DNA from: a virus
DNA: 40,283 nt
Virus record (IMG/VR): IMGVR_UViG_3300044533_001663
Location: 1 to 40,283 of that record
Strand: one strand, 5' to 3'
Shown one piece after another: positions 11,941 to 30,590 of this stretch; the first letter of the stretch is position 1, and each line of letters starts with the position of its first letter. The position numbers and the translations under genes are program-made. Under the pieces are notes generated by a model. The model worked only from the letters and a program-made list of their open reading frames with translations. It searched no databases and was not told the DNA's origin.

Positions 11941-12311
11941 TGGGCCGCCCCGACGTCGACATCGAACCTCCCCGCGTCGTCAGCGTCGTCATCGGCGCCG
12001 CGCTCTACGGCCTCGCTTGGGGGCAGGACCCCGGCAGCGGCGCCGGCTGGCACAGCGCCACCGACCGCGACGTGCCGTCCGAGCGCCTGACCGCGGCCGA
12101 GGTTGCCGCCCTCTTCGCAGCCGCGGCCACCTCTGAAGCTGCGCTGGACGCCGCGCTGACGGTCGGCCCCACGTCCCGCGCGTGGTCGAAGGCCAAGCAG
12201 CGCGCCGAGAACACCGCGCAGGGCGGCGCCGCGGCGCTGCTGACCGCGTGCCGGGCGCGCTACGCGGCGTGGGTCGGGGCGCCGCTGGCCAGCCCGTGGG
12301 TCACGGGGTAG
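11940..12311 (+). CDS. Hypothetical protein, 123 aa, last gene of the late transcript
   Basis: The start overlaps the previous stop (TGATG). The protein has an N-terminal beta strand VVSVVIGAALYGL and then Ala-rich helices with basic residues. No domain was recognised. The gene is followed after 32 bases by a strong hairpin terminator, so it closes the rightward operon. Confidence 0.5.
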   Translation: MGRPDVDIEPPRVVSVVIGAALYGLAWGQDPGSGAGWHSATDRDVPSERLTAAEVAALFAAAATSEAALDAALTVGPTSRAWSKAKQRAENTAQGGAAALLTACRARYAAWVGAPLASPWVTG

Positions 12312-12343
12312 GCTGCGGCACACCCAACGCATGGGCGACTCTG

Positions 12344-12375
12344 GCCCCGGCCTGCTTCGAACAGGCCGGGGCTTT
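12344..12375 (+). terminator. Rho-independent-type terminator of the late operon
   Basis: An 11-bp perfect GC stem (12344-12354 with 12362-12372) encloses a seven-base loop and is followed by TTT (12373-12375). It lies between convergent operons. The T-run is only on the rightward strand, though the hairpin could also slow leftward transcription. Confidence 0.8.
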
Positions 12376-12381
12376 GTGCTG

Positions 12382-12627
12382 TCAGGTCGGCGCCGTCCGC
12401 GCCCTCTCATACAGCCTCCCCGCAGCCCACACCACGCGGACCGCGGCCCACCACACCGCCCCACCCCGTAGCCCGCCCACCGTCAGCAGCAGCCCCACCG
12501 CCTCATGCGCCGCCACCGCCGCCCGGTCGGCGAGCGCCCCGTCCGGCCCCGCGACCGGCGCCCGGAGCAGGCGCGCGGCATCGCGGAGGGTGAGGAGCAG
12601 GGCCTGCCGTGTGCGGTGCGGTGCCAC
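12382..12627 (-). CDS. Hypothetical protein, last gene of the leftward operon
   Basis: The open frame extends further upstream, but that part overlaps the HPPC gene and lacks a start with a good site. GTG 12627 gives 81 residues, with a hydrophobic middle (VGLLLTVGGL then AVWWAAV) that may cross or associate with the membrane, and a basic C-terminus. The start choice is uncertain because the purine run GGGGGAG is very close to the GTG. Confidence 0.4.
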   Translation of the reverse strand: MAPHRTRQALLLTLRDAARLLRAPVAGPDGALADRAAVAAHEAVGLLLTVGGLRGGAVWWAAVRVVWAAGRLYERARTAPT

Positions 12628-13380: not shown

Positions 13381-13653
13381 TCACCCGCCGACGTGCTCGG
13401 TTGCCTCGCCGCACGGGTGCCGCGGCACCGACGCCACCCACTCGGCGCCGTCGTAGCAGCCCGGGAAGTACACGCGGCCGGCGGTCCACAACGTGAACGG
13501 CTGCCCTGCGGTCCCGCCATAGCCAGCGTCGAACACCACATCGAGCGCAGCATCGTCCAGCGTGCACCCCTCCACGTCCGCCCACGACTCGCCGTGGTCC
13601 TGCATGACCGCGGTGATTTCCTTGCGCCACGTCGTCTTGTCACTGTCGCTCAT
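13381..13653 (-). CDS. Hypothetical protein, 90 aa
   Basis: This is an acidic protein with a Lys/Asp-rich N-terminus and a C-terminal half rich in aromatic residues (WTAGRVYFPGCYDGAEW). It starts with ATG, and this start overlaps the stop of the gene upstream (ATGA). The family is not recognised. The 79 bases between its stop and the HPPC gene start hold no further gene. Confidence 0.5.
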   Translation of the reverse strand: MSDSDKTTWRKEITAVMQDHGESWADVEGCTLDDAALDVVFDAGYGGTAGQPFTLWTAGRVYFPGCYDGAEWVASVPRHPCGEATEHVGG

Positions 13654-15831: not shown

Positions 15832-16173
15832 TCAGACGGTCGGCTGCACACGCTCCCACCGCGCCACTGCGGCGCTGAGGCGGCGCTGCGCAGCGGCGTA
15901 GCGGTCAGCCTGCCGGGGCGTGGTCCAGCCGCGCAGGCTGGCGACCTGCGCCTCGGCGGCGTCCACAGCGCGGCGGGCGCGGGCGATGGCGGCCCAGCCC
16001 GAGCGGCGCTGGGCACTGGTGATCTGCGCGGGGGTCAGGCTGTGGCAGCGGGTGTAGTGCCCGGCGACGCTGTCCCAGACGCGGACGGTGCCGTCGGTGT
16101 CGACCTGGGCGCGGTAGGTGCCGGTCTCGGTGGCGAAGGCGTTGCGGACGGTCACGGTGGCGAGGCTGGACAT
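15832..16173 (-). CDS. Hypothetical protein, first gene of the 16-12 kb leftward operon
   Basis: The 113-residue product has an N-terminal beta part with TVRVWDSVAGHYTRCH, then an Ala/Arg-rich helical C-terminus. A GGAG site is placed before the ATG. It is the first gene after the leftward promoter at 16231-16259. No family was assigned. Confidence 0.5.
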   Translation of the reverse strand: MSSLATVTVRNAFATETGTYRAQVDTDGTVRVWDSVAGHYTRCHSLTPAQITSAQRRSGWAAIARARRAVDAAEAQVASLRGWTTPRQADRYAAAQRRLSAAVARWERVQPTV

Positions 16174-16230: not shown

Positions 16231-16259
16231 AGCCTACCATCGCTGCACAAACGCTGCAA
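16231..16259 (-). promoter_or_regulatory. Leftward early promoter, TTGCAG-N17-TAGGCT
   Basis: On the minus strand, TTGCAG (16259-16254) and TAGGCT (16236-16231, preceded by TGG) are separated by exactly 17 bases. The same pair with the same spacing occurs rightward at 21890-21918. It should drive the genes from 16173 down to 12382. Confidence 0.7.
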
Positions 16260-16269
16260 CCCCGCTGCA
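16241..16269. promoter_or_regulatory. Three operator boxes at 11-bp phase
   Basis: The heptamer CGCTGCA (TGCAGCG on the other strand) starts at 16241, 16252 and 16263, exactly one helical turn apart. It covers the spacer and -35 region of the leftward promoter. The same box is present at the divergent early promoters at 21.85-21.90 kb. This suggests one regulator binding cooperatively at both loci. Confidence 0.6.
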
Positions 16270-16278
16270 CAAACTTTC

Positions 16279-16485
16279 TCAATCTTTGTCGAGAACGCCG
16301 TCACCGCCGAAGTTCGCAGCAGCCCGCACCGCCCACGCGCGCAGGATCGCGCAGACCGCCGCGTCCAGGGGCCCGGGCACGAGCCCGCGCAGCTCGGCGG
16401 CGAGGCCTGCGGGCAGGACGACGGTCACGTCAACGTCGACAGAGTCGTCGTCGGCGCACACGTCATCGACGTCGTACTCACACAC
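16279..16485 (-). CDS. Hypothetical acidic protein, 68 aa
   Basis: The GTG start overlaps the end of the Rad50-like gene by eight bases. The protein has an acidic N-terminus rich in Asp and Val and a helical C-terminal half. It is the last gene of the 21.8-16.3 kb leftward operon. The function is unknown. Confidence 0.45.
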   Translation of the reverse strand: MCEYDVDDVCADDDSVDVDVTVVLPAGLAAELRGLVPGPLDAAVCAILRAWAVRAAANFGGDGVLDKD

Positions 16486-18538
16486 GGGGGCCGCCGACGG
16501 CCGACACCGTGATCCAGGCCTGGTCGACGGTGCGGATCAGCCACACGCCTGCGACCTGCGGCCAGCGCCCCGACCAGTCCTGTGCCCGGTCGACGATGAC
16601 GGGCAGGTCCGCGTACCCAACCACTGGCGGCCCCGGATACCGCACCTGGGCCAGCGTCCGCAGCGCGACCCGGAGCTCGAGGTCGGCGAGGACCTGGCGG
16701 CCGGAGCTCGCGCACCACCACGGCCGGCCGTCGATGAGCACGTCGGCCTCGGGCCCGCCCTCTGCGGCAGACCCCCACACGACCGCGACGCCGGTGCCGG
16801 TGAGCTGTGCGTCGAGCGCGGCGGCGGCGCGGGTCGCGGCCTCGGTCGGGGCGCGGCGGGCAGCGTCGAGCACAGCCTCGGCGCGGAGCACGGCCTGGTG
16901 AGCGGCAGCGGCCGCAGCCGCGGTCGCGGTGGCGCGGTCGCGCGCGTCGGCGACGCGCTGGGCGTGGGTGGCAGCCGCGGCGTCGGCGAGGGCCTGGCCC
17001 TGGGCTGCCTGCGCATCGAGCTCGGTGGCGGCGCGGATCGCCGCCTCGGCGCGGCTGCGCGTGTCGGGCCGGTCGTGGCCCGTGGGCGGGGTGCTGACGA
17101 CGGGCGCGGGCCCGGGGTCTGCCTCAGGGGCAGGCTGCGGGCCGAGCGCGCGGACGGCGGCGCTGTGCGCGGCGCGGTCGCGGGCCTGGGTCTCGGCGGC
17201 CTGGGCGCGGGTGCGCGCGGCGTCGAGGGACTGCCGCGCCTGCAGGTGGATGGCCTCGCGCTCCGTCAGCGTCGCCTGCGCCCGCGTGATCTGGCGCTCG
17301 CGCGCGGCCTCGCTCTCGGACTCCTCGCGGGCCAGGGCCTGGGTCGCAAGCTCGACCCGCTCGGCGAGGCGGGACAAGTGCAGCTCGAGGTGCTGGGTCG
17401 ACAGCGTGGTCCCACACGCGGGGCAGTCCCCGACCGTCGGGGTGGCCTGGGCCACTCGGTGCGCCTCGATGGCGAGCGTGAGGCTGGCCCGGCGCTGCGA
17501 AACCATCGGGTCCTGCCACGCCTCGGCCGCATGCAGCGCCTGCCGCGCGACGTGCACCTGCGTCTCGGCCGCGAGCACGGCGTCGACCAGCGCCTGGGGC
17601 ACGGCGACGGCCTCGGGTGCGTCCGGTGCGGGGCCCAGGGCGTCGAGCCGGGCCTGCCACGCGGCGCGGTCGGCCTCGCGCTCGGCGTGCCGGGCGTCGG
17701 CCTGTCGCCAGACCTCGAGCGCGCGCTGGGTCGACGTGTAGAGCTCGAGCTGGGCCAGCCAGTCGCGCGCGGCGCCGGCCTTGCGCTGGGCCTCGGCGAC
17801 GACGCTGGGGTCGGTCGGGCTGTAGGGGGCGGGGGCAGCCCCCTCGGCAGCGGCGAGAGCGGCCTGCGCCTCCGCGGCGGCCCCCTGGGCCGTGGCTTCG
17901 GCTTTGCGCGCGGTCGTCGCCAGGGACGCGGCGCCGCGCACGGCCGTCTTGCCGCGGCCGATGTCGTCGACGTGCGCGACCTCGCCCGGGCGCAGACCGC
18001 CGACCCACTCCGCGACGATGGCGGCGACATCCACCGCGGGCAGGGCCCGCAGCAGCAGGTCGCGCAGGGCCCGGCCGCGGTCGCCGGCGCGGGTCAGGGC
18101 CAGCGCCTCGCCCGGGGCGACGATGGCTCGGACGAGGTCAGGGTCGAGGCCCAGGGCCTGCCCCCAGGCGGCCTGCGAGGTGTAGGTCTGGACCGCGCGG
18201 CTGGCCTGGTCACCGGGCACCTGCGGGGCGCTGGACAGCGACCACGTCGAGGACCGGGCGCGGGTCAGGCTGCGCTTCAGCACGCGGTCGTCGGCGAGGA
18301 CGAGGGCCACGTCGGCGCGGTCGGCGGCGTCGTTGATCAGCTCGGGCGGGAAGGGGCTGCCGTCGGGGGCGGACCCGGTCAGGAGCAGCAGCAGGGCGAG
18401 GAGGGCGGTCGACTTTCCGGCCTGGGAGGGGCCTGCGATCTGGACCGGGCCCTGGGTTGCGGGCGGGGCGAGGGTCAGGCGGCGCGCGGCGGTGTAGGGG
18501 CCGAGGCCGGCGGCGTGCAGCGAGCGGATGGTGGTCAT
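16478..18538 (-). CDS. Rad50/SbcC-like SMC-family ATPase with zinc hook
   Basis: This 686-residue protein has an N-terminal Walker A GPSQAGKST at residues 36-44. Long Ala/Glu/Arg coiled coils flank a central CPAC zinc hook (Cys372 and Cys375). The C-terminal ATPase half has a signature-like SSGRQVLADLELR segment and a Walker B-like LPVIVD. In the Rad50/SbcC family, ATP binding brings the two halves together and a partner nuclease (SbcD/Mre11) cuts DNA ends; the hook joins two coiled coils. It is shorter than bacterial SbcC (around 1000 residues), mainly through shorter coils. No SbcD-like gene is in the window. It lies with the RecE-like nuclease gene in one operon. Confidence 0.8.
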   Translation of the reverse strand: MTTIRSLHAAGLGPYTAARRLTLAPPATQGPVQIAGPSQAGKSTALLALLLLLTGSAPDGSPFPPELINDAADRADVALVLADDRVLKRSLTRARSSTWSLSSAPQVPGDQASRAVQTYTSQAAWGQALGLDPDLVRAIVAPGEALALTRAGDRGRALRDLLLRALPAVDVAAIVAEWVGGLRPGEVAHVDDIGRGKTAVRGAASLATTARKAEATAQGAAAEAQAALAAAEGAAPAPYSPTDPSVVAEAQRKAGAARDWLAQLELYTSTQRALEVWRQADARHAEREADRAAWQARLDALGPAPDAPEAVAVPQALVDAVLAAETQVHVARQALHAAEAWQDPMVSQRRASLTLAIEAHRVAQATPTVGDCPACGTTLSTQHLELHLSRLAERVELATQALAREESESEAARERQITRAQATLTEREAIHLQARQSLDAARTRAQAAETQARDRAAHSAAVRALGPQPAPEADPGPAPVVSTPPTGHDRPDTRSRAEAAIRAATELDAQAAQGQALADAAAATHAQRVADARDRATATAAAAAAAHQAVLRAEAVLDAARRAPTEAATRAAAALDAQLTGTGVAVVWGSAAEGGPEADVLIDGRPWWCASSGRQVLADLELRVALRTLAQVRYPGPPVVGYADLPVIVDRAQDWSGRWPQVAGVWLIRTVDQAWITVSAVGGPRV

Positions 18539-18540
18539 GA

Positions 18541-18840
18541 TCAGGCCTCCGAGGGCAGGATGTGGATGGGGGTCGTCCGGCGGATCTGGGCGAGAGCAGA
18601 CCCCAGCACCGAGGACCACCGCGCGTCGTCGGGGCACCGCTCGCGGTACTCCTCGCGCACGGCGTCGACCACGTCGGGAGAGACGCGCAGGGCGCCGTCG
18701 ACGGTGGTCGCGAGGGAGAGGAGGATGCAGCCGACGTCGGCGCCGATCTCGGCGATGAGGGCGGCGTCGTCGGCTTGGCGCTGGGCGTCGCTGTAGCGGT
18801 GGACGCCGGCGAGGTAGCGGTCGCGGTGGGTGGTGGGCAT
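18541..18840 (-). CDS. Hypothetical protein, 99 aa
   Basis: This is a helical protein with a charged N-terminus (RDRYLAGVHRY). It ends two bases before the Rad50-like start, so the two are probably co-translated. No family was recognised. Confidence 0.5.
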   Translation of the reverse strand: MPTTHRDRYLAGVHRYSDAQRQADDAALIAEIGADVGCILLSLATTVDGALRVSPDVVDAVREEYRERCPDDARWSSVLGSALAQIRRTTPIHILPSEA

Positions 18841-18856
18841 GGTGGTCAGCTCCGGT

Positions 18857-18892
18857 GTCTGTCGAGAGGTCTGTCGAGAGGTCTGTCGAAAG
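18857..18892. repeat. Three tandem 12-bp repeats
   Basis: GTCTGTCGAGAG occurs at 18857-18868 and 18869-18880, and GTCTGTCGAAAG at 18881-18892. The array sits in the gap before the gene that starts at 18840 and after the 40-residue gene. It could be a protein-binding array or a translational leader element. Confidence 0.75.
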
Positions 18893-18896
18893 GTGC

Positions 18897-18919
18897 GCGC
18901 CCCGGGCTCCTCGGGGCGC
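18897..18919. terminator. GC hairpin beside the 12-bp repeats
   Basis: A perfect 8-bp stem (GCGCCCCG, 18897-18904, with CGGGGCGC, 18912-18919) has a seven-base loop. No T-run follows on either strand, so it may be a pause, processing or weak termination element within the leftward operon. Confidence 0.45.
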
Positions 18920-18949
18920 TGTGGTGGGGGCCAGGGCCGGCCGGGCGGG

Positions 18950-19072
18950 CTAGTACCAGCCGCCGTTGCACTCGCAGGCGATGCCGTCCATGATGCCGCC
19001 GTTGCAGGCTTGGGTCTTGGGCGGGGTGTAGAGACCGAGGCTGATCGCCAGGGCGAGGAGGGCGCAGGACAT
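18950..19072 (-). CDS. Very small Cys-rich, probably exported or membrane peptide (40 aa)
   Basis: The ATG at 19072 is preceded by a GGAG site six bases upstream, and the TAG stop is at 18950-18952. The peptide has a hydrophobic N-terminus (MSCALLALAISLGLY), then CNGG, CEC and a second NGG before a final WY. That gives four Cys residues in 40. It looks like a signal or membrane helix followed by a disulphide- or metal-bound tail. It fills most of an otherwise empty gap between larger genes. The function is unknown. Confidence 0.5.
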   Translation of the reverse strand: MSCALLALAISLGLYTPPKTQACNGGIMDGIACECNGGWY

Positions 19073-19158
19073 GGTGGGCTCCAAGGCGCGCCGAGGTCCC
19101 GGTCGGCGCGTGAGGTGAGGCCGCCGGGGCGGCGGGTGGTCAGGGTCAGGCCGGGTGG

Positions 19159-19734
19159 TCAGGCCAGTGGGTCGAAGTCGTCGCCCGGCGTGCCAAAAAG
19201 CGCGTCGACGGGGTCGGCGGAGGGGGCCGCCTCGGGCGTGGGGGCAGCCCCAGCCTCGACGGCCGGATCGCTCAGCGGCTCCCCCGGCAGGTCGAAGTCG
19301 TCGGGCTGGGGCTCGGGCTGGGCCGACGCTTCGGGCGCAGCTTCGGGCTGGGGGCTGCCCTCGCCGCCACGGCTGCGGCGGCCACCGCGGCGGGGCCGGG
19401 GCGCGTCGAGGGGGTCGGGGGTGGTCGTGACGGCGGGCTGGGCGGCGGGCGCGGTGTCGAGTGGGTCGTGGGGGGTGGGCTGCGCCTCGGTGGCGGCCAG
19501 CTCCTCCATCGCGCGCAGGGACTCGGGCGAGAAGGCGGGGGATGCAACTTTGCCGTGCACGTCGGTGTTGAGCATGTACTGCGCGTGCATAGCGGCTACC
19601 TGAGAGCAGCGGAACGCCCGCAACAGCAAATCGTAGCCGTCAGCCTTAGCTTGGATGACGCCGCGCTCGGCTTCTCGGCAGAGCTCGTCTGCGAGCGTAA
19701 GCTGCGTCTGCACAAAATCGTTGGCGGTGGTCAT
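19159..19734 (-). CDS. Hypothetical protein with acidic Pro-rich C-terminus, 191 aa
   Basis: ATG 19734 is preferred because GAGGAG lies five bases upstream; a GTG at 19740 is also in frame. Residues 1-90 are helical (VQTQLTLADEL, then LLRAFRCSQVAAMHAQYML). The rest is a low-complexity Pro/Ala/Asp/Glu region ending in DDFDPLA, which loosely resembles acidic tips of single-strand-binding proteins. It may interact with the recombination proteins encoded beside it. No OB-fold was recognised. Confidence 0.5.
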   Translation of the reverse strand: MTTANDFVQTQLTLADELCREAERGVIQAKADGYDLLLRAFRCSQVAAMHAQYMLNTDVHGKVASPAFSPESLRAMEELAATEAQPTPHDPLDTAPAAQPAVTTTPDPLDAPRPRRGGRRSRGGEGSPQPEAAPEASAQPEPQPDDFDLPGEPLSDPAVEAGAAPTPEAAPSADPVDALFGTPGDDFDPLA

Positions 19735-19736
19735 GG

Positions 19737-20396
19737 TCACTCCTCGCCCTGCTCATCGGCAGGGGCGGGCTCGGGGTTGAGGGCGGGGGCAGTCCCCCGG
19801 ATCGCCTTGATGACGTCAGAGTCGGCGGGGGCCTGCCGCAGGCGCTTGGCCCAGCCTGCGCGGGCGCCGCGGTCGGTGGGCAGGGTCACGGGCTGGGGCA
19901 GGGCGGCGAGGTAGGTCGCCAGCGCGGCTTCGGTGGCCTGCAGCTCCGCGAGCGCGACGGCGAGGGGGTCGCCGGTCGGGATGAGGCGGACGCGCGCGGG
20001 CGGCTTGCGGGCGCCGAGGTTGATCGACACATCCATCGGCTCAGTCAGCGACGGGGACCCGAGCACGCGGACGCCACCCTTGACGTCTTTGCCCACCTTG
20101 ACCGTCGCATCAAAGAACAGCGTCACAGCGCGGCCCTTCCATGCGCCAGTCTTTGCGCCCCACATCGCCGACAGGCACCCGGCGGTGGTGCGGCACGGCA
20201 CCCACGGCTTGACGCCGCGCTCTTGGAAGTACACGACCAGCTTTTCGCGGACCGCCTTGGTTTTGGGGTCTTCGATGTCCTCAATGCCGGCGGCGGCGAT
20301 CGTGAGCGTGCACCCCTCGGTCGGCAGGTTGGGGCCGGTCAGGTAGCGCCCGCCGAAAAGGGCGCGGTAATCGAAGTCGTCAGCGTCAGTCGTCAT
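19737..20396 (-). CDS. Conserved phage DNA-metabolism protein of unknown activity
   Basis: This 219-residue protein matches, in pattern, a widespread phage family found near exonuclease and single-strand-binding genes. There is an FDYRALFGGRYL start and an LTIAAAGI strand. A KLVVYFQERG strand is then followed by a W-G-x-x-T-x-x-W-K-G-R-x-V-T-L turn and a GGVRVL strand. The C-terminal 80 residues are helical. The ATG lies inside the end of the PD-(D/E)XK nuclease gene (11-base overlap), which supports a shared task in recombination. The activity, if any, is unknown. Confidence 0.6.
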   Translation of the reverse strand: MTTDADDFDYRALFGGRYLTGPNLPTEGCTLTIAAAGIEDIEDPKTKAVREKLVVYFQERGVKPWVPCRTTAGCLSAMWGAKTGAWKGRAVTLFFDATVKVGKDVKGGVRVLGSPSLTEPMDVSINLGARKPPARVRLIPTGDPLAVALAELQATEAALATYLAALPQPVTLPTDRGARAGWAKRLRQAPADSDVIKAIRGTAPALNPEPAPADEQGEE

Positions 20397-21312
20397 CGGA
20401 CACCTCCAGGTCATCGTCGAGGTCGGAGTCGTCGCCGAAAGCCCAAGCCGGCAGCTCCACCGGCACAACGTCAGGGGCCTGCCCCATCCACCGCCCCGAC
20501 GCCTCAGCGGCCGCCACACGCGCCAGCGCCTCAGCCCGCACGGCAGCACCGCAGTAGAGCGCGCCATCGAGGTCGTCGGGGTTGGGCCAGTACGTGCCCA
20601 GGCTGTAGACGCCGACGTCGATGCAGGGGCGGACCTCATAGGCGACGATGTAGACGTCGATAGGGCAGGGCCGGAGCTGCCGCGCCGACTCCAGAGCGCG
20701 CACCCCGGCGCAGTAGTGGGCGAGCTGCGCGTGGTAGAGCTGCCGCGCGATCCAGGCCGCCATCCTGCGCGGGTGGAGGCTCGGGACCGCCTTGAGGTCG
20801 ACGATCGCGTGCCGATCGACGCCCCAGCGCAGCAGGTCGAGGCGGCCTTTCATCGCGCGGCCAGCCTCGGTCCACGTCAGCGAGATCTCGGGAAGAACGG
20901 TCCTGCCGCCCGGGGCGCACAGCGGGCCCGCCACCGGATGCTCGGCGACGGCCTGGGCCACGGCCTGAGCCTGGGCATAGTCGTCGGCGCGCAGCCAGGT
21001 CACCAGCGGGTGCGCCGCGCAGGCGGCGTCGTACTCGGCGCCGCGGCGCTGCGCGGTCGCGGTCCATGGGCGGTAGTGGGACGCAAACCGGTCCGACTCC
21101 AAGACCGCGGCGTGCATCGCCTGCAGGCCGCTGGAGTCGCTGCGCTCGGCGTGCTCGCCGTCGAGGGCGAGCTTGTAGTGGCGCGCGCTGGTGACGGCGT
21201 GCTTGAGGATGCTCCAGTTCAGGCCGTCAAGCTGCTGGTAGCGGTCAAACGGCAGGTCGCGGAACAGGCGCCCGCCCTGAGGTTGCGCGCCCGCCGGCAG
21301 ACCCCCGCTCAC
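20386..21312 (-). CDS. RecE-like PD-(D/E)XK exonuclease
   Basis: The GTG at 21312 overlaps the upstream stop and gives 308 residues; longer in-frame readings are shadow. The core has the PD-(D/E)XK arrangement: E142 (in PEISLTW), D159 (in KGRLDLL), then D172 and K174 (in AIVDLKAV). An N-terminal YQQLDGLNWSILKHA helix and a C-terminal QLAHYCAG helix are as in exonuclease VIII-type phage nucleases. These enzymes resect double-stranded ends for strand annealing. The C-terminus is a run of acidic residues. No clear Beta/RecT annealase gene was identified next to it. Confidence 0.75.
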   Translation of the reverse strand: MSGGLPAGAQPQGGRLFRDLPFDRYQQLDGLNWSILKHAVTSARHYKLALDGEHAERSDSSGLQAMHAAVLESDRFASHYRPWTATAQRRGAEYDAACAAHPLVTWLRADDYAQAQAVAQAVAEHPVAGPLCAPGGRTVLPEISLTWTEAGRAMKGRLDLLRWGVDRHAIVDLKAVPSLHPRRMAAWIARQLYHAQLAHYCAGVRALESARQLRPCPIDVYIVAYEVRPCIDVGVYSLGTYWPNPDDLDGALYCGAAVRAEALARVAAAEASGRWMGQAPDVVPVELPAWAFGDDSDLDDDLEVSDDD

Positions 21313-21791
21313 GACGCGGCCTCGGTGGTGGCGGCCACCCCACCGGCAGCCCCCAGAGCCGCCCGCCGCTCGGTCACGGTGCGGGCCGCCATGCGCAGCA
21401 GCTGCATCTCGGCGGCGTCGGGGTCGCGCCCGAGCCAGGCGTGCCGCAGTTCGCGGATCAGGTGGTCGAGTTGGGCGAGCTGCCCGCGGTCGGCGCCGAC
21501 ATCGGCGACGGCTCGGCTGAACCGGCGCGCGACGGCGATCTTGGTCTGCCCGGGCTCCGCGGTCGGGGCCTCCCATCCGTCGGTGACGCCGCGCAGGATC
21601 TCACGGGCGGCGCTGTAGGCGTCGGCGGTCCAGTCGCTGAGGAGAAGGTGCGCCACGTCGGCGCGCCAGGCTTGGGACAGGTCGTCGGCGAGGGCGAGGG
21701 CGAGCGCGAAGCTGCGGGCGTGGCTGGCCCGCTCGCGGGTGCGGTCGCCGCGGGCGGTGCTGGTGAGGGGCTGGCGGGCGGTGCTGAACAC
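21309..21791 (-). CDS. Hypothetical helical protein, first gene of the 21.8-16.3 kb leftward operon
   Basis: GTG 21791 has CAGGAG seven bases upstream; the longer reading would run into the promoter region. The 160-residue product is helical, with an Arg-rich N-terminus and LDHLIRELRHAWLG near the middle. It overlaps the nuclease gene by 4 bp. A role with the nuclease is plausible by position, but no domain was recognised. Confidence 0.5.
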   Translation of the reverse strand: MFSTARQPLTSTARGDRTRERASHARSFALALALADDLSQAWRADVAHLLLSDWTADAYSAAREILRGVTDGWEAPTAEPGQTKIAVARRFSRAVADVGADRGQLAQLDHLIRELRHAWLGRDPDAAEMQLLRMAARTVTERRAALGAAGGVAATTEAAS

Positions 21792-21823
21792 GGTGTGGCT
21801 CCTGGGTTGTGGTTGGTGGTAGC

Positions 21824-21897
21824 TGCAGCGACGGTGTACCATCGGCCGCAGCGTGCGTCAAGCGCCGCCAGAAATAAATCGCAGCGTGGTTGCAGCG
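21824..21897. promoter_or_regulatory. Divergent control region with GCAGCG boxes
   Basis: TGCAGCG or CGCAGCG boxes start at 21824, 21847, 21880 and 21891. The last two are 11 bp apart and 21847 is 33 bp before 21880, so three boxes lie on one helical face. They cover the -35 regions of both divergent promoters. An AT-rich stretch (GAAATAAATC, 21871-21880) sits between them. Confidence 0.55.
21833..21861 (-). promoter_or_regulatory. Leftward promoter, TTGACG-N17-TACACC
   Basis: On the minus strand TTGACG (21861-21856) and TACACC (21838-21833, preceded by TGG) are exactly 17 bases apart. It points to the gene starting at 21791 and is divergent from the promoter at 21890-21918. Confidence 0.55.
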
Positions 21898-21918
21898 GCG
21901 TGGGGAGGGTGGTAGGCT
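21890..21918 (+). promoter_or_regulatory. Rightward early promoter, TTGCAG-N17-TAGGCT
   Basis: TTGCAG (21890-21895) and TAGGCT (21913-21918, preceded by TGG) have a 17-base spacer. The start gene at 21937 follows with an AGGAGG site at 21924-21929. The same sequence pair is used leftward at 16231-16259. Confidence 0.72.
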
Positions 21919-21936
21919 GGGGCAGGAGGTGAGTCC

Positions 21937-22608
21937 ATGACCCAGCGAAACAAGTGGAGCCCGCGAGATGAACGGCGCGCCGAGCGCGCACGCAGAGAGG
22001 AGCAGGTGGAGGTCGTCGCCGCGCTGGTGACGGCGCACCCGGGCGATGCCGCCGACATGCTGCAGCGCGTGTCGGCCGAGCTCGAGACGCTCTGGCCGCA
22101 GGTGACGACGCTGCAGGGGCAGCTCGAGGCGGCGCAGGAGGACCGCGCGAGCTGGCAGAAGCGCGCCCGCGCGGCCGAGCGCGCGCTCGAGGTGTCGCAG
22201 GCGCGCGTCGCAACCCTCGAGGTCGCCGAGAAGCGCGCGAACAAGCTGCAGGGCGACCTCGGCGACGCGCGGCGCGAGATCGCCGCGCTGCAGCGCGCGG
22301 TGGACGCGGCGGCGCCGACGCACCGGGCGCACCCGATGGATGTGGACGCGGCGTGGATCTTCATCCGGCAGCAGCCGTCGCTCCGGCTGATGAGCAGCCA
22401 GACGCGGCCGGACATCCTCCGGCGCGACGACGCGGGCGAGGTCCGGCGCCTGTGCACCCTGCTCAGCGTGGCCGATGAGGGCGCGGCGCGCGCGGCTGCG
22501 CTTGAGGACCTGCGGGCGGGGCTGGTGAAGCTCCGCACGCGGGCGGCGCGGGACAGCCTCAGCGGCGTTGCCTCCGGCGGTGTCGTGGCCCCGCAGGTGC
22601 TCTCATGA
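21937..22608 (+). CDS. Coiled-coil protein, first gene of the replication operon
   Basis: The 223-residue product has a basic N-terminus (KWSPRDERRAERARR) and then a long coiled coil (about residues 40-125) rich in Leu, Ala, Glu and Arg. The C-terminal half is helical, with a PTHRAHPMDV linker. A basic head plus coiled coil would suit a DNA-bound regulator or a replication organiser, possibly including binding to the phased boxes next to its own promoter, but no helix-turn-helix was certain. The first gene of a divergent early operon is often regulatory. Confidence 0.55.
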   Translation: MTQRNKWSPRDERRAERARREEQVEVVAALVTAHPGDAADMLQRVSAELETLWPQVTTLQGQLEAAQEDRASWQKRARAAERALEVSQARVATLEVAEKRANKLQGDLGDARREIAALQRAVDAAAPTHRAHPMDVDAAWIFIRQQPSLRLMSSQTRPDILRRDDAGEVRRLCTLLSVADEGAARAAALEDLRAGLVKLRTRAARDSLSGVASGGVVAPQVLS

Positions 22609-23773: not shown

Positions 23774-25770
23774 TCCCCCTCCCCTGCCCCGACGGCCAGA
23801 CCCCGCGCGCCTGGCAGACCCAAGCCCTCGCCGCCCTCCGCGACGCCGCCCGCGGCGCTGGCCTGCGCCGGGTGATCATCACGGCCGCGACCGGCACCGG
23901 CAAAGGGACGCTGCTCGCGGGCCTGTGCGCGATCTACACCCGGGCCAAGCAGCGCGTCTTGGTCTTGGTGCACCGCGACGAGCTGATCCGCGACCTCGCC
24001 GGCCGCTGCGAACTGGTCGGGGTGACGGTCGGCATCGTCAAGGGGGCCGAGAACGGGGTGCTGGCGCCCTGTGTCGTGGCCTCGGTACAGAGCCTGCGCG
24101 GTGAAAAGCGACTGGCGCAGCTCGGGCGCTTCGACCTGGTGATCACCGACGAGTGCCACCACGCCACCGCCCCGACCTACCAGGCGGTCTATGCACGGGT
24201 CGGTGAGGTGCGGACGGCGCTGGGGCTGCCCGCGGCGCTGCATGTCGGCCTGACCGCCACGCCCTTCAGGACCGCGAAGGCTGGGGGTGTCTCTGGCCTG
24301 GGTGACGCCTACGAGGCCATCATCTACGAGCACGGCATCCGGCAGGCCATCGAGGCGGGCGACCTCGTGACGCCCCAGGCGATCCGGGTGGACACCCACG
24401 TCGAGCTCGCGGGCCTCTCCGTCCGCGGCGGCGACTATGCAGAGGAGGACCTCGCGCGCGTCATCGACCACGACGAGCGCAACGAGGCGATCGCGCGCTG
24501 GTATGCCGAGAATGGCGGCTGCGCGAGGTTCCTCGGCTTCGGCGTCTCGATTGCGCACGCCGAGCGGCTGGCGGCGGCTATGCAGGCGCAGGGCATTGCC
24601 GTCGAGGCGGTCCACGGCACGATGCCTGCGGCGCTGCGGGCCGAGCGGCTGGCGGCTTTCAGGTCCGGCGCGCTGCGGGGGCTGTTCAGCCGGGATCTTC
24701 TGTTCGAGGGCTTCGACGCGCCTTTTGTTTCAATGCTTCTCGCGGTCCGCCCGACGGCGTCGCAGATCATCGCGCAGCAGCTCTTGGGGCGGGGCTTGCG
24801 GCTGTACCCGGGCAAAACGACGTGCCTGGCGGTGGACTTCGTTCGCTTCCTTGACGTGCTGGACCTAAGCCTCATCCCGAGCCTGGGGGCAGCCCCTGAG
24901 GCCGACGCTGACGTGGGGTCTGCCCCCGGTCTGCGCCCCGGCGACCTCGTGGTCCACCGCTATGATGACCACGGCGTGGGGCAGATCCTCAGTCTCGTGC
25001 CCGAGGCCGACAGCCTGTGCATCGTGCGGTGGCGGCCGTCGGAGCCAGACACGGCTGAGGCCAGGCACGGGCTCGCGGAGTTGGTCAGGGCCCCGCGCGA
25101 GGCGGTGGAGCAGGTGCCGATCCCACTGCGGGTGACGGGCGTCAGCGAGTCGTCGGTGTGCATCCTGCCCGGGTCCGACCCGCGGCGGGCGTGGCCGTGG
25201 GTGGCGCAGGGGGAGGGCACCAAGGCAGACCCCCGGCGGTGGGTCTGTGTCTGGGAGCCGCACCCGGATGAGCAGGTGCGCCCGGGCGGGGTGCTGGGCG
25301 CCGTGGCCGTCGTAGTGGAGACGACGGGCGGGTGGGTGCTCTGGGTGCACAGCGTGCGCAGGGGCAAGGTCAAGCCCGACGACACCGAGTGGGCCCCGGA
25401 GCCGTTCACCGCCCGGCCGCGCGAGGCCGGGCAGCGCGAGCCGGTGATGGAGCCTGGCGCGCTCGGGCGCCTGGGGCGGATGAAGGCTGGCGAGCGGGTG
25501 CTGGCGGCGTTGGGGTGCCGGGTGCCGGACCTCGGCGCGGCCTGGCGGCAGGCCCCGGCGACGGACGGGCAGGTGCGCCGGCTGCGGGCGCTGAGGTACG
25601 GTCGCGATCTGGGGGCTGTGACCCGCGGCGAGGCGTCGAGCCTGATCGGGGCGGCCGAGGGGTGGCGGGCGGTGGTGGCGGCGAGGATGGAGAACAGGCG
25701 GCAGCACGCAGTTTCGCGTGTGGGCGGCGGTAACGGTCAAGGGTCGCAGGAGGTGGCAGATGTCGGGTGA
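23770..25770 (+). CDS. SF2 DEAD/DEAH-type helicase with C-terminal accessory domains
   Basis: GTG 23770 gives 666 residues; in-frame sequence upstream is shadow. Motifs in order are Walker A AATGTGKGT (K45), DECH box (127-130), TAT (162-164) followed by PFR, and motif VI QLLGRGLR (337-344). These are the hallmarks of ResIII-type superfamily 2 helicases that unwind DNA during replication or repair. After the motor, near residue 391, GDLVVHRYDDHGVG recalls the Tudor-like domain at the end of PcrA/UvrD proteins. A final helical domain contains DGQVRRLRALRYG and GEASSLI, a pattern seen in other phage ATPases. The extra domains may tether the helicase to polymerase or DNA. Confidence 0.82.
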   Translation: MIPLPCPDGQTPRAWQTQALAALRDAARGAGLRRVIITAATGTGKGTLLAGLCAIYTRAKQRVLVLVHRDELIRDLAGRCELVGVTVGIVKGAENGVLAPCVVASVQSLRGEKRLAQLGRFDLVITDECHHATAPTYQAVYARVGEVRTALGLPAALHVGLTATPFRTAKAGGVSGLGDAYEAIIYEHGIRQAIEAGDLVTPQAIRVDTHVELAGLSVRGGDYAEEDLARVIDHDERNEAIARWYAENGGCARFLGFGVSIAHAERLAAAMQAQGIAVEAVHGTMPAALRAERLAAFRSGALRGLFSRDLLFEGFDAPFVSMLLAVRPTASQIIAQQLLGRGLRLYPGKTTCLAVDFVRFLDVLDLSLIPSLGAAPEADADVGSAPGLRPGDLVVHRYDDHGVGQILSLVPEADSLCIVRWRPSEPDTAEARHGLAELVRAPREAVEQVPIPLRVTGVSESSVCILPGSDPRRAWPWVAQGEGTKADPRRWVCVWEPHPDEQVRPGGVLGAVAVVVETTGGWVLWVHSVRRGKVKPDDTEWAPEPFTARPREAGQREPVMEPGALGRLGRMKAGERVLAALGCRVPDLGAAWRQAPATDGQVRRLRALRYGRDLGAVTRGEASSLIGAAEGWRAVVAARMENRRQHAVSRVGGGNGQGSQEVADVG

Positions 25771-26413
25771 GCAGATCGAGATGGTGCGGGGCAAGGCTGC
25801 GCTGAAGCTCTGGGCGGCGCCGAAGCTGCGCGCGGACGGGTCGGCCGAGGACCCGCGGCTGGTCGACGTCGAGGTGGACGGGTGGGTCCTCGGGCCGCTC
25901 CACGTGGCCGACTACGACGTGATGGAGACGCTGTCGGCGATGTCGCCGCTGGGGACGGCGCCGCCTGGGGTGGGCGCCGTCAGCCTGTACGGGCTGAGCA
26001 TCGGCCTGCGCCCGCCGCGGCGGTACATGGACCACCCCGGCAAGGCGGTCGAGGAGGGCAAGCTGGCCGCGCGGGTGATGTGGGAGCACGTCCTGCAGCA
26101 CGTGATCGAGAGGGTCGGGGACGATGAGGCGCAGGTGGTCGCACTCCTGCGGCAGCCCCAGCCCAAGGGGTCGCCGCTGGGCAGGGCCATGATCGACATC
26201 GGCAACGAAACGCTGCACAGGCTCGACACTGTCGAGGGGGTGGCCGAGGCGGCTCGACGCGCGGAGCAGGCCAACGACGCAGCCGCGGAGGCGGTGCAAG
26301 CGGACCGTGAGGCCGAGCAGGCGATCCAGTCGGCCATCGGGGCCGCGGCGCTGGCTCTGGGGCTGACGCTGGGTCTGCCCACTGGCGCAGAGGCGGTGCC
26401 CAATGTCGGCTGA
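25760..26413 (+). CDS. Hypothetical protein, 217 aa
   Basis: The start ATG 25760, inside the helicase end, has GGAGG six bases upstream. The first 100 residues are alpha/beta, with a PPRRYMDHPGKA loop. A helical region follows with an EAARRAEQANDAAAEA coiled stretch, then a hydrophobic C-terminal AALALGLTLGLPTG segment. It overlaps the primase gene by 11 bp. The function is unknown; a primase-helicase accessory is possible by position. Confidence 0.5.
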   Translation: MSGEQIEMVRGKAALKLWAAPKLRADGSAEDPRLVDVEVDGWVLGPLHVADYDVMETLSAMSPLGTAPPGVGAVSLYGLSIGLRPPRRYMDHPGKAVEEGKLAARVMWEHVLQHVIERVGDDEAQVVALLRQPQPKGSPLGRAMIDIGNETLHRLDTVEGVAEAARRAEQANDAAAEAVQADREAEQAIQSAIGAAALALGLTLGLPTGAEAVPNVG

Positions 26414-29066
26414 ACAGACCCTCCTCGCCGCGGCCCTGGACTACGCCCGGCGCGGCTGGCGGGTGCTGCCGCTGCACAGCGTCGACCACCTGGGCGAGTG
26501 CACGTGCGGCAGCCCCTGTGCCTCGCCCGCGAAGCACCCGCGGCTGCCTGACGGGGTCAAGGGCGCGAGCGCCGACGCGCAGCAGGTCCGCGAGTGGTGG
26601 CGGCGCTGGCCCCATGCCAACGTCGGGGTCGCGACGGGGCCTGAGTCGGGCGTGTGGGTGCTGGACCTCGACCGCGCCAAGGCGGGCGAGGCGGACGGGC
26701 TCGCGGCTGTGCTCGACGTCTGCGAGTACGCCCTCGACCTCTCCGCAGCCGTGGAGACGGGCTCGGGCGGGCAGCACCTGTGGTGGGCGTGGCCGGAGGA
26801 GGGCACGGTCCAGAGCCGGGCCCGGGTGCTCACCCTCGACGGCGTCAAAGCTTCGGCCGATACCCGCGGCAGGGGCGGCTACGTCGTCGCGCCGCCGAGC
26901 GTCCATGCGTCGGGCCGGCTGTACCGCTGGACGCAGGAGCCCCCCACCGAGGGCCTGCCCGCCTGCCCAGGCGCGCTGCTCGAGGCGGTCCGGGCGCCGC
27001 AGCGCGAGGCCCCGCCTGCCGCGGCTGGCGGCCCCAGGGTCGCGCCTGAGCTTGACGGCGACTCACGGGCCGCCCGCTACGTCGAGGGCGCTCTGCGGCG
27101 CGCCTGCGAGCGCGTGGCTGCGTCGGCGCCTGGGGGCAGGCACGCGGCGCTGCTGCGCGAGGGCGAGACGCTGGGCGGGTGGGTGCACCTGGGGGTCTGC
27201 CCGCCGGAGGTGATGATCGAGGCTCTGACGGCTGCGGGCGTCGCTGCGGGCGTGCCTGAGGCTGAGGCGGTCCGGACGGCCCGTGACGCGGTGGCGCACG
27301 GGCAGGAGCGGCCCAGGGAGCTGCCCGCGGCGTCGTACGCGGGCAGGGGGCGGGCCCATGACGTGGGCGAGGAGGAGGTCGACGCAGCGGGCCTCGACTG
27401 GGATGTGCCCGACGCTGAGGAGGATGAGGGCGAGGATGATGGCTACGTGCCAGGCGTCGGCGTCGAGGTTGCGGAGGAGGACCCGGAGATCAGCGGCGTG
27501 CAGGTCCGGGGCCGGCCCCAGATCGTCGTCACCGGCCGGCAGCCCCGGGACGTGGTCGGCGACGCGCGGCGGGCGCTGGCCAGCCTGCGGGGCGCGGGCC
27601 GGCTCTACATGCGCGACGGGCGCGTGGTTCAGGTGGTCGTCACCGAGCACGGCCCCGCGATCCGCGAGGTTGGGGCCGACCAGCTGACGGCGTGCCTGGT
27701 CGAGTCGGCGGACCTCATCGAGCTCCGCCGGCCGCGGGCGCGCGAGATGACCGCGGGCGAAGCCCTGCTCGAGGAGCCCGCCAAGGCGATCCCCGGCTAC
27801 CTGCTGCCGGCGCTGGCAGGGTCGCGGGAGGAGTGGCTGCCGCTGCTGTCCAGGGTCGCAACCGCGCCCTACTACGACGCGGACGGGCGCCTTGTGGCGG
27901 ACCCTGGGTACGACCAAGGCAGCCGCGGCTACCTGTCCGAGGGGCTGGCGCGGGTGCGGATGACGGCAGACCAGGCGCTTGCTGTCATTGACGACTGGAT
28001 CGGGCAGTTCCCCTTTGTGGGGCCCGCCGACCGCGCGCATGCGCTGGCTTTCGCCTTGACGCCGATCGTGCGCGACCTGGTCCACGGGCCGGTGCCGATG
28101 ACCGTGTTTGAGGCGCCCGCCCCAGGCACCGGTAAGAGCCTCCTGATGCAGGTTCTGGCCTCGGCAGCGACCGGTCGCGCGGTCGAGCCGACGCCGATGT
28201 CCAGCCAAGAGGACGAGCGGCGCAAGGCGATGGGCTCGATGCTCCAAGAGGGCCGCCCCGTCGTGCTTCTAGACAACGTGCGCGGGCATCTTCACGACCC
28301 GGCTCTGGAGGGCGTGTTGACCGCGTACCCGACGTGGAGTGACCGCCGGATGGGTGGGCAGGACCGGCTCCGCGTGCCCGCCGTGGCTGTCTGGGGATTG
28401 TCGGGCAATAACTTGACCATGAACGCCGACCTTGCGCGGCGCACGGTCACGGTCCGTCTCGACGCACGCTGTGCTCGGCCTGAGGCGCGCACCGGCTGGC
28501 GGCACGCGGACCTGCTGCGCTGGACAGCAGACCATCGCGACGAGCTGCTGAGCGCGTTGCTGGCGCTGGTTCAGACGTGGCAGCTCGAGGGGCGACCGAC
28601 GGGGACTGCCGTGCTCGGCAGCTACGAGGCCTGGGCGCGCGTACTCGGCGGCATCCTCGTGGCCGTCGGTGTGGCGGGGTTCTTGGGCGACCGCGAGACG
28701 CGCGCCGAGACGGTCGACCCCGAGACGGCGGAGTGGGTGGGGCTGTTGCAGGTCTGGCTGACCGACCCGCAGCTCCGCGGGCGCAGGGCGGCGGGTGAGC
28801 TCGCGGCCGTCTGCGCAGACCGCGGGCTCCTGCTCGGGGTGCTGGGCGATGGGCAGCCCCTGTCGCGGTCGCGGCGCATGGGGCGCGCGCTCGGGGCGCT
28901 GCGCGGTCGGGTCTTCAGGATCGACGCTCAGCACGAGGTCGAGGTCGTCTCGCCCGGCATGCTCCACGGCGTGACCACCTACGAGGCTCGGGTGCTGGGC
29001 GAGGTGGGCAACGAGGTGGGCAAGGGCGGCCCGCGACAGGTTCTACCTTTCGAGCCGAGCCCTTGA
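26403..29066 (+). CDS. Prim-pol N-terminal domain fused to a helicase-type ATPase
   Basis: This 887-residue protein has an N-terminal bifunctional primase-polymerase domain. The D-L-D metal site is at 88-90 (in VWVLDLDRAK), the GSGGQH segment has His125, and RGRGGYVVAPPS lies near 155. An acidic linker follows (about 330-370, many Asp and Glu). The C-terminal motor has Walker A PAPGTGKS (K578) and a later Walker B-like VVLLDN and a sensor-like GNN. It should make primers and load or drive the replication fork. No separate DNA polymerase gene was seen, so it may also extend primers or depend on the host enzyme. It overlaps the upstream gene by 11 bp and is followed by a strong terminator and the origin-like region. 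Confidence 0.82.
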   Translation: MSAEQTLLAAALDYARRGWRVLPLHSVDHLGECTCGSPCASPAKHPRLPDGVKGASADAQQVREWWRRWPHANVGVATGPESGVWVLDLDRAKAGEADGLAAVLDVCEYALDLSAAVETGSGGQHLWWAWPEEGTVQSRARVLTLDGVKASADTRGRGGYVVAPPSVHASGRLYRWTQEPPTEGLPACPGALLEAVRAPQREAPPAAAGGPRVAPELDGDSRAARYVEGALRRACERVAASAPGGRHAALLREGETLGGWVHLGVCPPEVMIEALTAAGVAAGVPEAEAVRTARDAVAHGQERPRELPAASYAGRGRAHDVGEEEVDAAGLDWDVPDAEEDEGEDDGYVPGVGVEVAEEDPEISGVQVRGRPQIVVTGRQPRDVVGDARRALASLRGAGRLYMRDGRVVQVVVTEHGPAIREVGADQLTACLVESADLIELRRPRAREMTAGEALLEEPAKAIPGYLLPALAGSREEWLPLLSRVATAPYYDADGRLVADPGYDQGSRGYLSEGLARVRMTADQALAVIDDWIGQFPFVGPADRAHALAFALTPIVRDLVHGPVPMTVFEAPAPGTGKSLLMQVLASAATGRAVEPTPMSSQEDERRKAMGSMLQEGRPVVLLDNVRGHLHDPALEGVLTAYPTWSDRRMGGQDRLRVPAVAVWGLSGNNLTMNADLARRTVTVRLDARCARPEARTGWRHADLLRWTADHRDELLSALLALVQTWQLEGRPTGTAVLGSYEAWARVLGGILVAVGVAGFLGDRETRAETVDPETAEWVGLLQVWLTDPQLRGRRAAGELAAVCADRGLLLGVLGDGQPLSRSRRMGRALGALRGRVFRIDAQHEVEVVSPGMLHGVTTYEARVLGEVGNEVGKGGPRQVLPFEPSP

Positions 29067-29113
29067 CGGCGCCGAGTTTGATCACCGGCTGACAATGACC
29101 ATCAAGACGACAT

Positions 29114-29145
29114 AAACCCTCGGGTGCGCAAGCGCTCGGGGGTTT
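29114..29145 (+). terminator. Terminator of the replication operon
   Basis: A 14-bp stem (29114-29127 with 29132-29145) pairs fully if G-U pairs are allowed. It encloses a GCAA tetraloop and ends in TTT. It lies 47 bases after the prim-pol stop and should end early rightward transcription. Confidence 0.85.
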
Positions 29146-29190
29146 GCTGTTGGGTCTGCCGCGAAGCTCAGGCAGGGCGACGGCAGACCC

Positions 29191-29536
29191 AGGTGGGTGG
29201 GCAGGGTGGGATAGCCGGCCTCTGGGTGGGCAAGGTTTTGCTATCCCACCTCGCTTAGGATGACGTACAGAACGTCGTTACAAGCAAGCTGGGTGGGATA
29301 GGTGGGATAGGTGGGTTCTCCTACGTGGGTGCATGAGTGATGTGTCATATCACACATACGCACATGTACGTATGCGCCACGTGTGCACGCACACGTGTGG
29401 GGATGGCCGTTCTTGCCCACCTATCCCACCCAGTCGCGATTATGGCAGGAGTAAGCGACAATAGTGCTGGGTGGGATAGCTCGCGCTTGCCCACCTGGAG
29501 CCGGATCATCCCACCCTTGCCCACCCTTGCCCACCC
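29191..29536. repeat. Iteron-like array of two decamers, both orientations
   Basis: GGTGGGATAG copies end at 29214, 29301, 29310 and 29479, with inverted CTATCCCACC at 29241-29250 and 29421-29430 and a partial copy at 29507. GGTGGGCAAG occurs at 29225-29234, with inverted CTTGCCCACC at 29412, 29486, 29516 and 29526 and a partial copy at 29196. The shared core is GGTGGGNNAG. Two copies at 29292-29309 are tandem with a 9-bp period. The arrangement is that of replication-initiator binding sites beside a primase-helicase gene. Confidence 0.7.
29340..29397. repeat. Cluster of palindromes in the origin-like region
   Basis: Three inverted repeats follow each other: ATGTGT/ACACAT (29340-29345 and 29352-29357), CATACG/CGTATG (29355-29360 and 29369-29374), and a perfect 9-bp pair CACGTGTGC/GCACACGTG (29378-29386 and 29389-29397) with a two-base centre. 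The stretch alternates purines and pyrimidines, which favours cruciform or Z-like forms. Confidence 0.65.
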
Positions 29537-29580
29537 GCGGCAGCCCCTGCCTGGTCATGTGTGCGATCTCACACAGGCGC

Positions 29581-29602
29581 ACCGTATCGCTGATGATACG
29601 GT
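29581..29602. promoter_or_regulatory. 8-bp inverted repeat, candidate operator
   Basis: ACCGTATC (29581-29588) and GATACGGT (29595-29602) are perfect inverted arms with a six-base spacer. They lie 15 bases before the -35 of the late promoter, a usual place for an activator or repressor site. Confidence 0.55.
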
Positions 29603-29616
29603 CGAGGGTCTGCCGC

Positions 29617-29645
29617 TTGCGTGCTCGGGGTGGCGCGTGTAGTGT
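29617..29645 (+). promoter_or_regulatory. Late promoter candidate, TTGCGT-N17-TAGTGT
   Basis: TTGCGT (29617-29622) and TAGTGT (29640-29645, directly preceded by TG) are 17 bases apart. It would begin the transcript of the terminase, portal and capsid genes. The same -35 sequence is used before the major capsid gene. Confidence 0.6.
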
Positions 29646-29762
29646 GGTCGGGGCACCCACCCCTGGGGCCCCTCCCATGTCCGGTTTCCACCACACACGG
29701 TCGGAAAAACCGGAAATCTCCGCGACATACGAGCCGCCCGTGGGCCGCTCGACGAGGCGCCG

Positions 29763-30590
29763 GTGACCACGCCCGCACCTCCGCACCGGCCTGCAGGCCC
29801 GGCGGCAGATCCCAGACCACCCGCAGCTGCAGGCTCTGGGGCTGCCGCAGCGCCAGTCCGCTCGCGTCGTGAGGACCTGGCCGCCGAGGTGCGCGAGTGG
29901 GAGCTCCTCGCGGGCGAGTGTGGCGACGCACGGCCGAAGGAGCGGCTGGACATCCTCAAGGCTCTGCAGGCCGCGCGGGCGCGCTTGCGCGACTTCGACG
30001 CCGCGCTCACGGTCGACCGGCTCGCGGTTGAGGAGGCGGCGCGCAAGCGGTCCATGCTCGCCCTCGCCGCCGGCTCGCACGTCGCCGCGGGCCGCGCCGC
30101 ACAGCAGGCCGAGCAGTCGCGGCTTGAGCGCGAGGAGCGCGAGCGACAGGTCCGCGAGCAGGAGCTGGCGCGCGAGACCCCGGAGTCGGCGCTGGGCCTG
30201 CTCGGCGAGCGGCTGCGCGCCCTGCCGGCGGGGCAGCTGCGGCGCCTGCTCGACCTCGTGTGCCCGGCGCTCCACCTGGCGCCGGGCGTGCCCTGCGTCG
30301 CGTGCGGCCGGCCGACACCGGACAGCACCCCCGCGGCAGACCCAGGCGCGCCTGTCGTGGCGGTGGCGCCGCCTGTCGTGGCTGCCGCGCCGGCGGCGCC
30401 GGCCACGCACGCTGTAGCCTCGCACGCTGTGGCCCCGCAGGATGCCCCAGGACCGCGCGCGCGCCCGCAGGCGGCTCAGGGTCTGCCGCCGGCTGTGGGT
30501 GCTGCTGTGGGGCCCGTGGCCGCGCCACAGGCGGCACCGGCCGCCCGCCGCGTCATCGGGGCGCCGCGCGTGCCTGGGGGTGACCAGTGA
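29763..30590 (+). CDS. Putative terminase small subunit
   Basis: The 275-residue protein starts at GTG 29763. After a Pro/Ala-rich leader of about 35 residues it is helical, with a coiled stretch from about residue 85 to 140. A CVAC pair lies near residue 180, and the C-terminal 90 residues are low-complexity Ala/Pro. It lies directly upstream of the large terminase, whose GTG overlaps its stop. This position and the helical core suggest the DNA-recognition subunit. No helix-turn-helix was certain, so the call rests mainly on position. Confidence 0.5.
   Translation: MTTPAPPHRPAGPAADPRPPAAAGSGAAAAPVRSRREDLAAEVREWELLAGECGDARPKERLDILKALQAARARLRDFDAALTVDRLAVEEAARKRSMLALAAGSHVAAGRAAQQAEQSRLEREERERQVREQELARETPESALGLLGERLRALPAGQLRRLLDLVCPALHLAPGVPCVACGRPTPDSTPAADPGAPVVAVAPPVVAAAPAAPATHAVASHAVAPQDAPGPRARPQAAQGLPPAVGAAVGPVAAPQAAPAARRVIGAPRVPGGDQ

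Follow-up and report, generated by a model that had tools for sequence, protein, structure and literature searches.

Genome organization and predicted promoters

The window, meaning the whole stretch of DNA analysed here, is the 40,283-bp IMG/VR virus record IMGVR_UViG_3300044533_001663, which derives from an uncultured phage and has a GC content of 74%. Its gene map shows structural genes in a rightward block, early genes in a leftward block (from about 21791 to 12400) that encodes a RecE-like exonuclease and an SbcC-like ATPase, and a second rightward block with a RuvC-like protein (recognised by eye), a DEAD-box helicase, a Prim-Pol and the large terminase. A phage collection contained no near DNA match to the window and only terminase relatives of less than 30% identity, bacterial genome contigs scanned for host or prophage relatives yielded none, and an Rfam search of the window gave no match. 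Related contigs (handles G001 to G012) were found by scans with the primase, helicase, exonuclease and terminase. G001 (3300042558_005024) carries a coiled-coil protein 97% identical to that of the window, and G011 (3300022752_004098) has an exonuclease and a terminase that are 60% and 80% identical, respectively, to their counterparts.

Several observations on this group of genomes stand apart from the promoters. Four relatives have contigs whose first base coincides (CCCCGCAAATGTCC...), and the contig of a fifth begins at the corresponding point. In the window, GGGGCCCCTCCCATGTCCGG occurs at 29665, upstream of the terminase genes; this position looks like a physical genome end or cos site and lies in an 822-bp non-coding stretch (29067-29888) with GGTGGGATAG repeats on both strands. 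A tiny ORF of the PL operon (18950-19084, minus strand; 38-44 aa), also present in G002, G004 and G005 and not found in G011, has a hydrophobic N-terminus and a conserved C-terminus, ECNGGW[YM], and may encode a peptide that is secreted or resides in a membrane. A 90-aa ORF (13381-13653, minus strand) is 98% identical in G004, where most shared proteins are 45-75% identical, thus indicating recent exchange. G012 (3300042879_006171; loci 12031-12474 and 20727-21141) encodes a tyrosine integrase and a divergent HTH_3 gene pair and, within the group, is probably a temperate phage. In the related contigs G007 (25702-26544) and G009 (26434-27240), the exonuclease match spans one in-frame TGA.

We focused on the divergent promoter region (21792-21936) and on a second leftward promoter (16231-16259), whose first downstream gene (15832-16173, minus strand) has a homologue in G012. 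Three promoters, with their start sites, are predicted here from sequence pattern:

21890-21918, plus strand: PR, predicted rightward promoter, TTGCAG-N17-TAGGCT; counterparts TTGCAG-N17-TAGGCT in G001 and TTGCAG-N17-TACACC in G011
21833-21861, minus strand: PL, predicted divergent leftward promoter, TTGACG-N17-TACACC; counterparts TTGACC-N17-TATACC in G001 and TTGCAC-N17-TACACA in G011
16231-16259, minus strand: PL2, predicted leftward promoter, TTGCAG-N17-TAGGCT; counterparts TTGCAG-N16-TATGAC in G011, TTGACG-N17-TATGAC in G005 and TTGCCA-N17-TAGGCT in G004

The first-pass annotation had placed TTGCAG-N17-TAGGCT leftward at 16259-16231 and rightward at 21890-21918, which is correct to the base; these are the two copies in the window, against none expected from 100 dinucleotide shuffles. 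It had counted two promoters, but the region has three, as the divergent and likewise box-bearing PL (21861-21833, minus strand) was overlooked. The emphasis on shared hexamers holds in part: TTGCAG over the -35 is conserved in G011, but the -10 differs there (TACACC and TATGAC), so the matching hexamers are the less important part of that observation. A generic sigma70 and terminator scan of the window missed all three promoters and returned nothing, because the hexamers are weak.

Phased boxes at the predicted early promoters

Both regions contain short boxes that overlap or flank the predicted promoter elements:

21824-21830, plus strand: TGCAGCG at the predicted PL start site; kept in G001, weak in G011
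21847-21853, plus strand: CGCAGCG in the PL spacer, 33 bp before 21880; the 33 bp are kept in G011
21858-21864, plus strand: degenerate box TCAAGCG over the PL -35, 11 bp after 21847; TGCAACC in G011
21880-21886, plus strand: CGCAGCG upstream of the PR -35; CGCGGCG in G011
21891-21897, plus strand: TGCAGCG over the PR -35; identical in G001 and G011
16263-16269, minus strand: PL2 box 1, TGCAGCG; TGCAGCA in G011
16252-16258, minus strand: PL2 box 2, TGCAGCG, overlapping the -35; TGCAGCA in G011
16241-16247, minus strand: PL2 box 3, TGCAGCG, within the promoter spacer; TGCAGCG in G011

The boxes described previously (TGCAGCG/CGCAGCG at 16241, 16252, 16263, 21847, 21880 and 21891, with 11-bp and 33-bp spacing) are exact, and those at 21824 and 21858 are further finds. 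The degenerate box at 21858 was recognised from a pair of 21-nt repeats at 33-bp spacing in the divergent region; since it lies 11 bp from 21847, it gives the region a second phased pair, 33 bp from the first.

The simplest explanation would be that these are plain sigma70 promoters and that the repeats reflect chance or a small tandem duplication. The genome is GC-rich and contains 90 YGCAGCR sites, but its only 11-bp same-strand pairs of this motif are three at PR and PL2, where shuffled sequences give a mean of 0.11 per genome and 0 of 400 shuffles reach three. Such pairs are likewise confined to these promoters in G001 (1/1) and G011 (2/2), as in the window (3/3), and all five non-coding TGCAGCG copies in the window fall within the two promoter intergenic regions. 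TGCAGC repeats do recur in unrelated contigs, several of them as plain tandem repeats. An exact-motif scan of viral contigs (TTGCAGCG-N11-GGTAGGCT) returned 24 loci whose flanking sequence does not resemble that of the window, and a triple-box scan returned 19 loci, among which G011 was the sole relative. Three unrelated high-GC phage or prophage contigs also have 11-bp TGCAGC repeats, with varied spacers. Duplication is opposed by G011, where the boxes are conserved while the intervening bases have changed, the opposite of what a recent duplication would leave. We consider this explanation highly improbable.

Conservation in close relatives

Loss of the box spacing in relatives had been named beforehand as a possible refutation; the spacing is kept in both G001 and G011. 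G001 retains PR and PL, and its two PR boxes match those of the window at 14/14 positions, against 10/19 for the surrounding bases; box 21847 is missing when the divergent regions are compared. In G011, PR reads CGCGGCG-4-TGCAGCG, the box 33 bp upstream again falls inside the spacer of PL, and PL2 has three boxes (TGCAGCA-4-TGCAGCA-4-TGCAGCG). Pooled over PR and PL2, 32 of 35 box positions are shared between the window and G011 (91%) but only 14 of 27 non-box positions (52%), which comprise the bases between boxes and the promoter spacer (Fisher p=0.0009). Conserved boxes and spacing with unconserved intervening bases, together with the 11-bp phase found elsewhere, provide good support for the earlier reading as an operator array; what was first noted is confirmed, and the case for it is stronger than originally claimed.

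Other lineages keep the phase and change the box

More distant contigs share the geometry with other repeats. G002, G003 and G004 have a like divergent arrangement in which [ACG]CGAA recurs at intervals of exactly 11 bp, in four copies (five in G003); as the three are near-identical in this region, they count as one observation. In G005 the repeat is AASCGTY, with copies spaced 33 bp in the divergent region and 11 bp at PL2, and PR and PL2 have in common an extended element ending GAAGCGTTGACG. The boxes of G002-G004 and G005 were defined after inspecting the sequences. A motif-free test of lag-11 self-similarity against shuffles was applied. In the divergent region it gave p values of 0.001-0.002 for G002-G004, 0.001 for G005, 0.007 for G011 and 0.03 for the window, was borderline for G001 (p 0.06), and was not significant for G006, G008, G009 and G012. 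At PL2 it gave p 0.001 in the window, G011 and G005, and the array was absent in G002/G004. Other repeats in the same 11-bp phase in other lineages indicate that the geometry is conserved and the box sequence is not, which points to a regulator that may change its target sequence between lineages while the spacing stays.

That one regulator serves both operons, as first proposed, agrees with the like boxes at both promoters in the window, G011 and G005, but not with G002/G004, whose second promoter lacks an array; a common regulator is nevertheless likely. The divergent region could also be a replication origin or bent DNA (iterons plus an A-rich segment), with the PL2 repeats incidental, given that an A-rich centre is found in all lineages, that the region adjoins the replication operon and that the phased CGAA runs of G002-G004 could bend DNA. 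This we regard as very unlikely: PL2, which lies at a distance of 5.6 kb and has no A-rich core, has matching boxes in the window and G011, PR and PL2 of G005 share their element, and the boxes track -35 elements.

Candidate regulators

Four proteins were considered:

21937-22608, plus strand: coiled-coil protein, first PR gene, leading candidate, with coiled-coil profile matches
21309-21791, minus strand: all-helical protein, first PL gene, less likely candidate, with a confident all-helical model
18541-18840, minus strand: 99-aa protein, candidate, found only in the window and G011
16279-16485, minus strand: 68-aa protein ending beside PL2, with a low-confidence beta-alpha-alpha model

None of the four has a recognised DNA-binding domain. 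The initial reading had noted that no regulator could be recognised, and this stands for the KfrA_N, HTH_17, HTH_3 and RHH_1 profiles, which have no match in the window (PF11740, KfrA_N, none up to E=10; PF12728, HTH_17, none up to E=1). HTH_3 proteins beside the divergent promoters are present in G007, G009 and G012 but not in the window, and the divergent region is bare in G006 and G008.

Every array-bearing lineage has the coiled-coil ORF, and a search of the divergent region in G006, G008, G007 and G009 did not reveal it; with about three lineages against three, this association is suggestive only. Co-occurrence and position thus favour the coiled-coil protein, already put forward for binding assays, as the regulator, whereas the failure to recognise a DNA-binding domain in it counts against. 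The protein is poorly conserved; its short G005 version has 55-66 aa, varying with the start chosen, and lacks an obvious DNA-binding part. We propose it tentatively, with the odds somewhat against it, as the first candidate to test.

The other three were set aside. The all-helical protein occurs in all close lineages, but similar-looking proteins (by eye) are encoded in the array-less G006 and G008, and a search of PDB and BFVD with its model returned no clear structural relative. The 99-aa protein tracks the TGCAGCG lineages, but has no counterpart elsewhere and no useful structural match. The 68-aa protein might be taken for a ribbon-helix-helix regulator, but PF01402 gives no match and its model is weak; no homologue was found in G011, which has the same boxes, and G002/G004, whose boxes differ or are absent, have one.

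Alternatively, a host-encoded factor might bind the boxes, and box sequences would then vary with differing hosts. This explanation would accommodate the failure to recognise a regulator in the window or G011, as well as the possibility that other hosts serve G005 and G002-G004; it would not accommodate the coiled-coil ORF, whose presence follows that of the array across lineages, and we think it improbable.

A proposed mechanism

Taking these data together, we propose, with a probability of roughly 0.6, that the boxes form an operator array for one oligomerising, cooperatively binding transcription regulator that is probably phage-encoded. Each 7-bp box would bind one protomer or dimer; with boxes 11 bp apart on the same helix face, neighbours would touch head-to-tail and thus bind cooperatively. 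Three boxes would cover about -45 to -17 at PL2 and two would cover about -45 to -28 at PR, and the second pair, 33 bp upstream of the PR pair, would cover the -35 and spacer of the divergent PL. As TTGCAG is -35 element and box part at once, bound protein and sigma70-RNA polymerase would compete, which makes a negative effect likely. The regulator is therefore probably a repressor that occludes the -35, a sign of control that we infer, and it could shut off or autoregulate the recombination (PL), replication (PR) and small-gene (PL2) operons.

The opposite sign is conceivable if a protein at the boxes around -45/-35 recruits RNA polymerase to promoters with a poor -35. TTGCAG is such a -35, and the generic scan missed all three promoters; Pho-box promoters, moreover, have an 11-bp direct-repeat array adjoining or overlapping a weak -35, a likeness that favours activation. 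The box in the PL2 spacer (16241-16247) and that at the PL start (21824-21830) suit occlusion better, and the -35 is a good TTGACG at PL and at PR and PL2 of G005, so that an activator appears unlikely.

If the operator-array model is right, it would outline the early regulatory circuit of a group of phages that only metagenomes have revealed, and operator spacing that is held while the recognition sequence shifts would offer a clean comparative case for regulator-operator co-evolution. A kind of DNA-binding protein that escapes profile libraries might also come to light. In its most specific and more doubtful form, the proposal would describe phage regulators of a new coiled-coil family, each encoded directly behind its own early promoter and polymerising on 11-bp-phased boxes at all early promoters, with a fixed geometry and box sequences exchanged between lineages to give separate specificities, and without a recognised DNA-binding domain or lysogeny module.

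Comparison with known systems

PhoB/PhoP-type Pho boxes are 11-bp direct repeats near the -35, but their sequences differ from the boxes described here and no response regulator was found among the scanned window proteins. A switch of the CI/Cro type would place an HTH_3 protein beside the divergent promoters, where the window has none. The repressor of L5-type (Cluster A) mycobacteriophages is monomeric and binds single 13-bp asymmetric stoperators spread genome-wide (PMC6550527, PMC9283540); short asymmetric sites with a lineage-specific sequence that diverges with the phage are common to both systems, but the window has phased arrays at early promoters only, rather than scattered single sites.

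BldC of Streptomyces binds direct repeats at promoters cooperatively, as a head-to-tail oligomer, with an AT-rich 9-bp unit, AATTNNNN(C) (PMC5859096). The head-to-tail binding to repeats proposed here would be alike, although no BldC/MerR-like protein was recognised in the window. KfrA of plasmid RA3 is an almost wholly alpha-helical autoregulator that binds five 9-bp direct repeats over its own -35/-10 (PMC7783346), which establishes that a protein of coiled-coil or alpha-helical build can act in this way. The window coiled-coil gene likewise lies directly behind the repeat-covered PR, but its repeats are spaced at 11 bp rather than 9 bp and KfrA_N is not detected.

A parallel in logic is Apl of phage 186, for which direct repeats 10-11 bp apart overlap the early promoters, cooperative binding represses both, and efficient binding needs three adjacent sites (PMC7498355). 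Apl also acts at att with integrase, whereas no tyrosine integrase (PF00589) or HTH_17 protein was found in the window, a record that may be incomplete, so that an excisionase role is not supported. Furthermore, 186 pR and pL converge whereas the window promoters stand back to back, and the second array at a distant operon has no equivalent in the Apl, P2 Cox or lambda Xis systems. Some recombination directionality factors (RDFs), Apl included, are sequence outliers (PMC7498355). With Apl, Cox and Xis the window shares repeats about one helix turn apart over early promoters, and the mechanism that we favour would, by analogy, copy the logic of 186 Apl.
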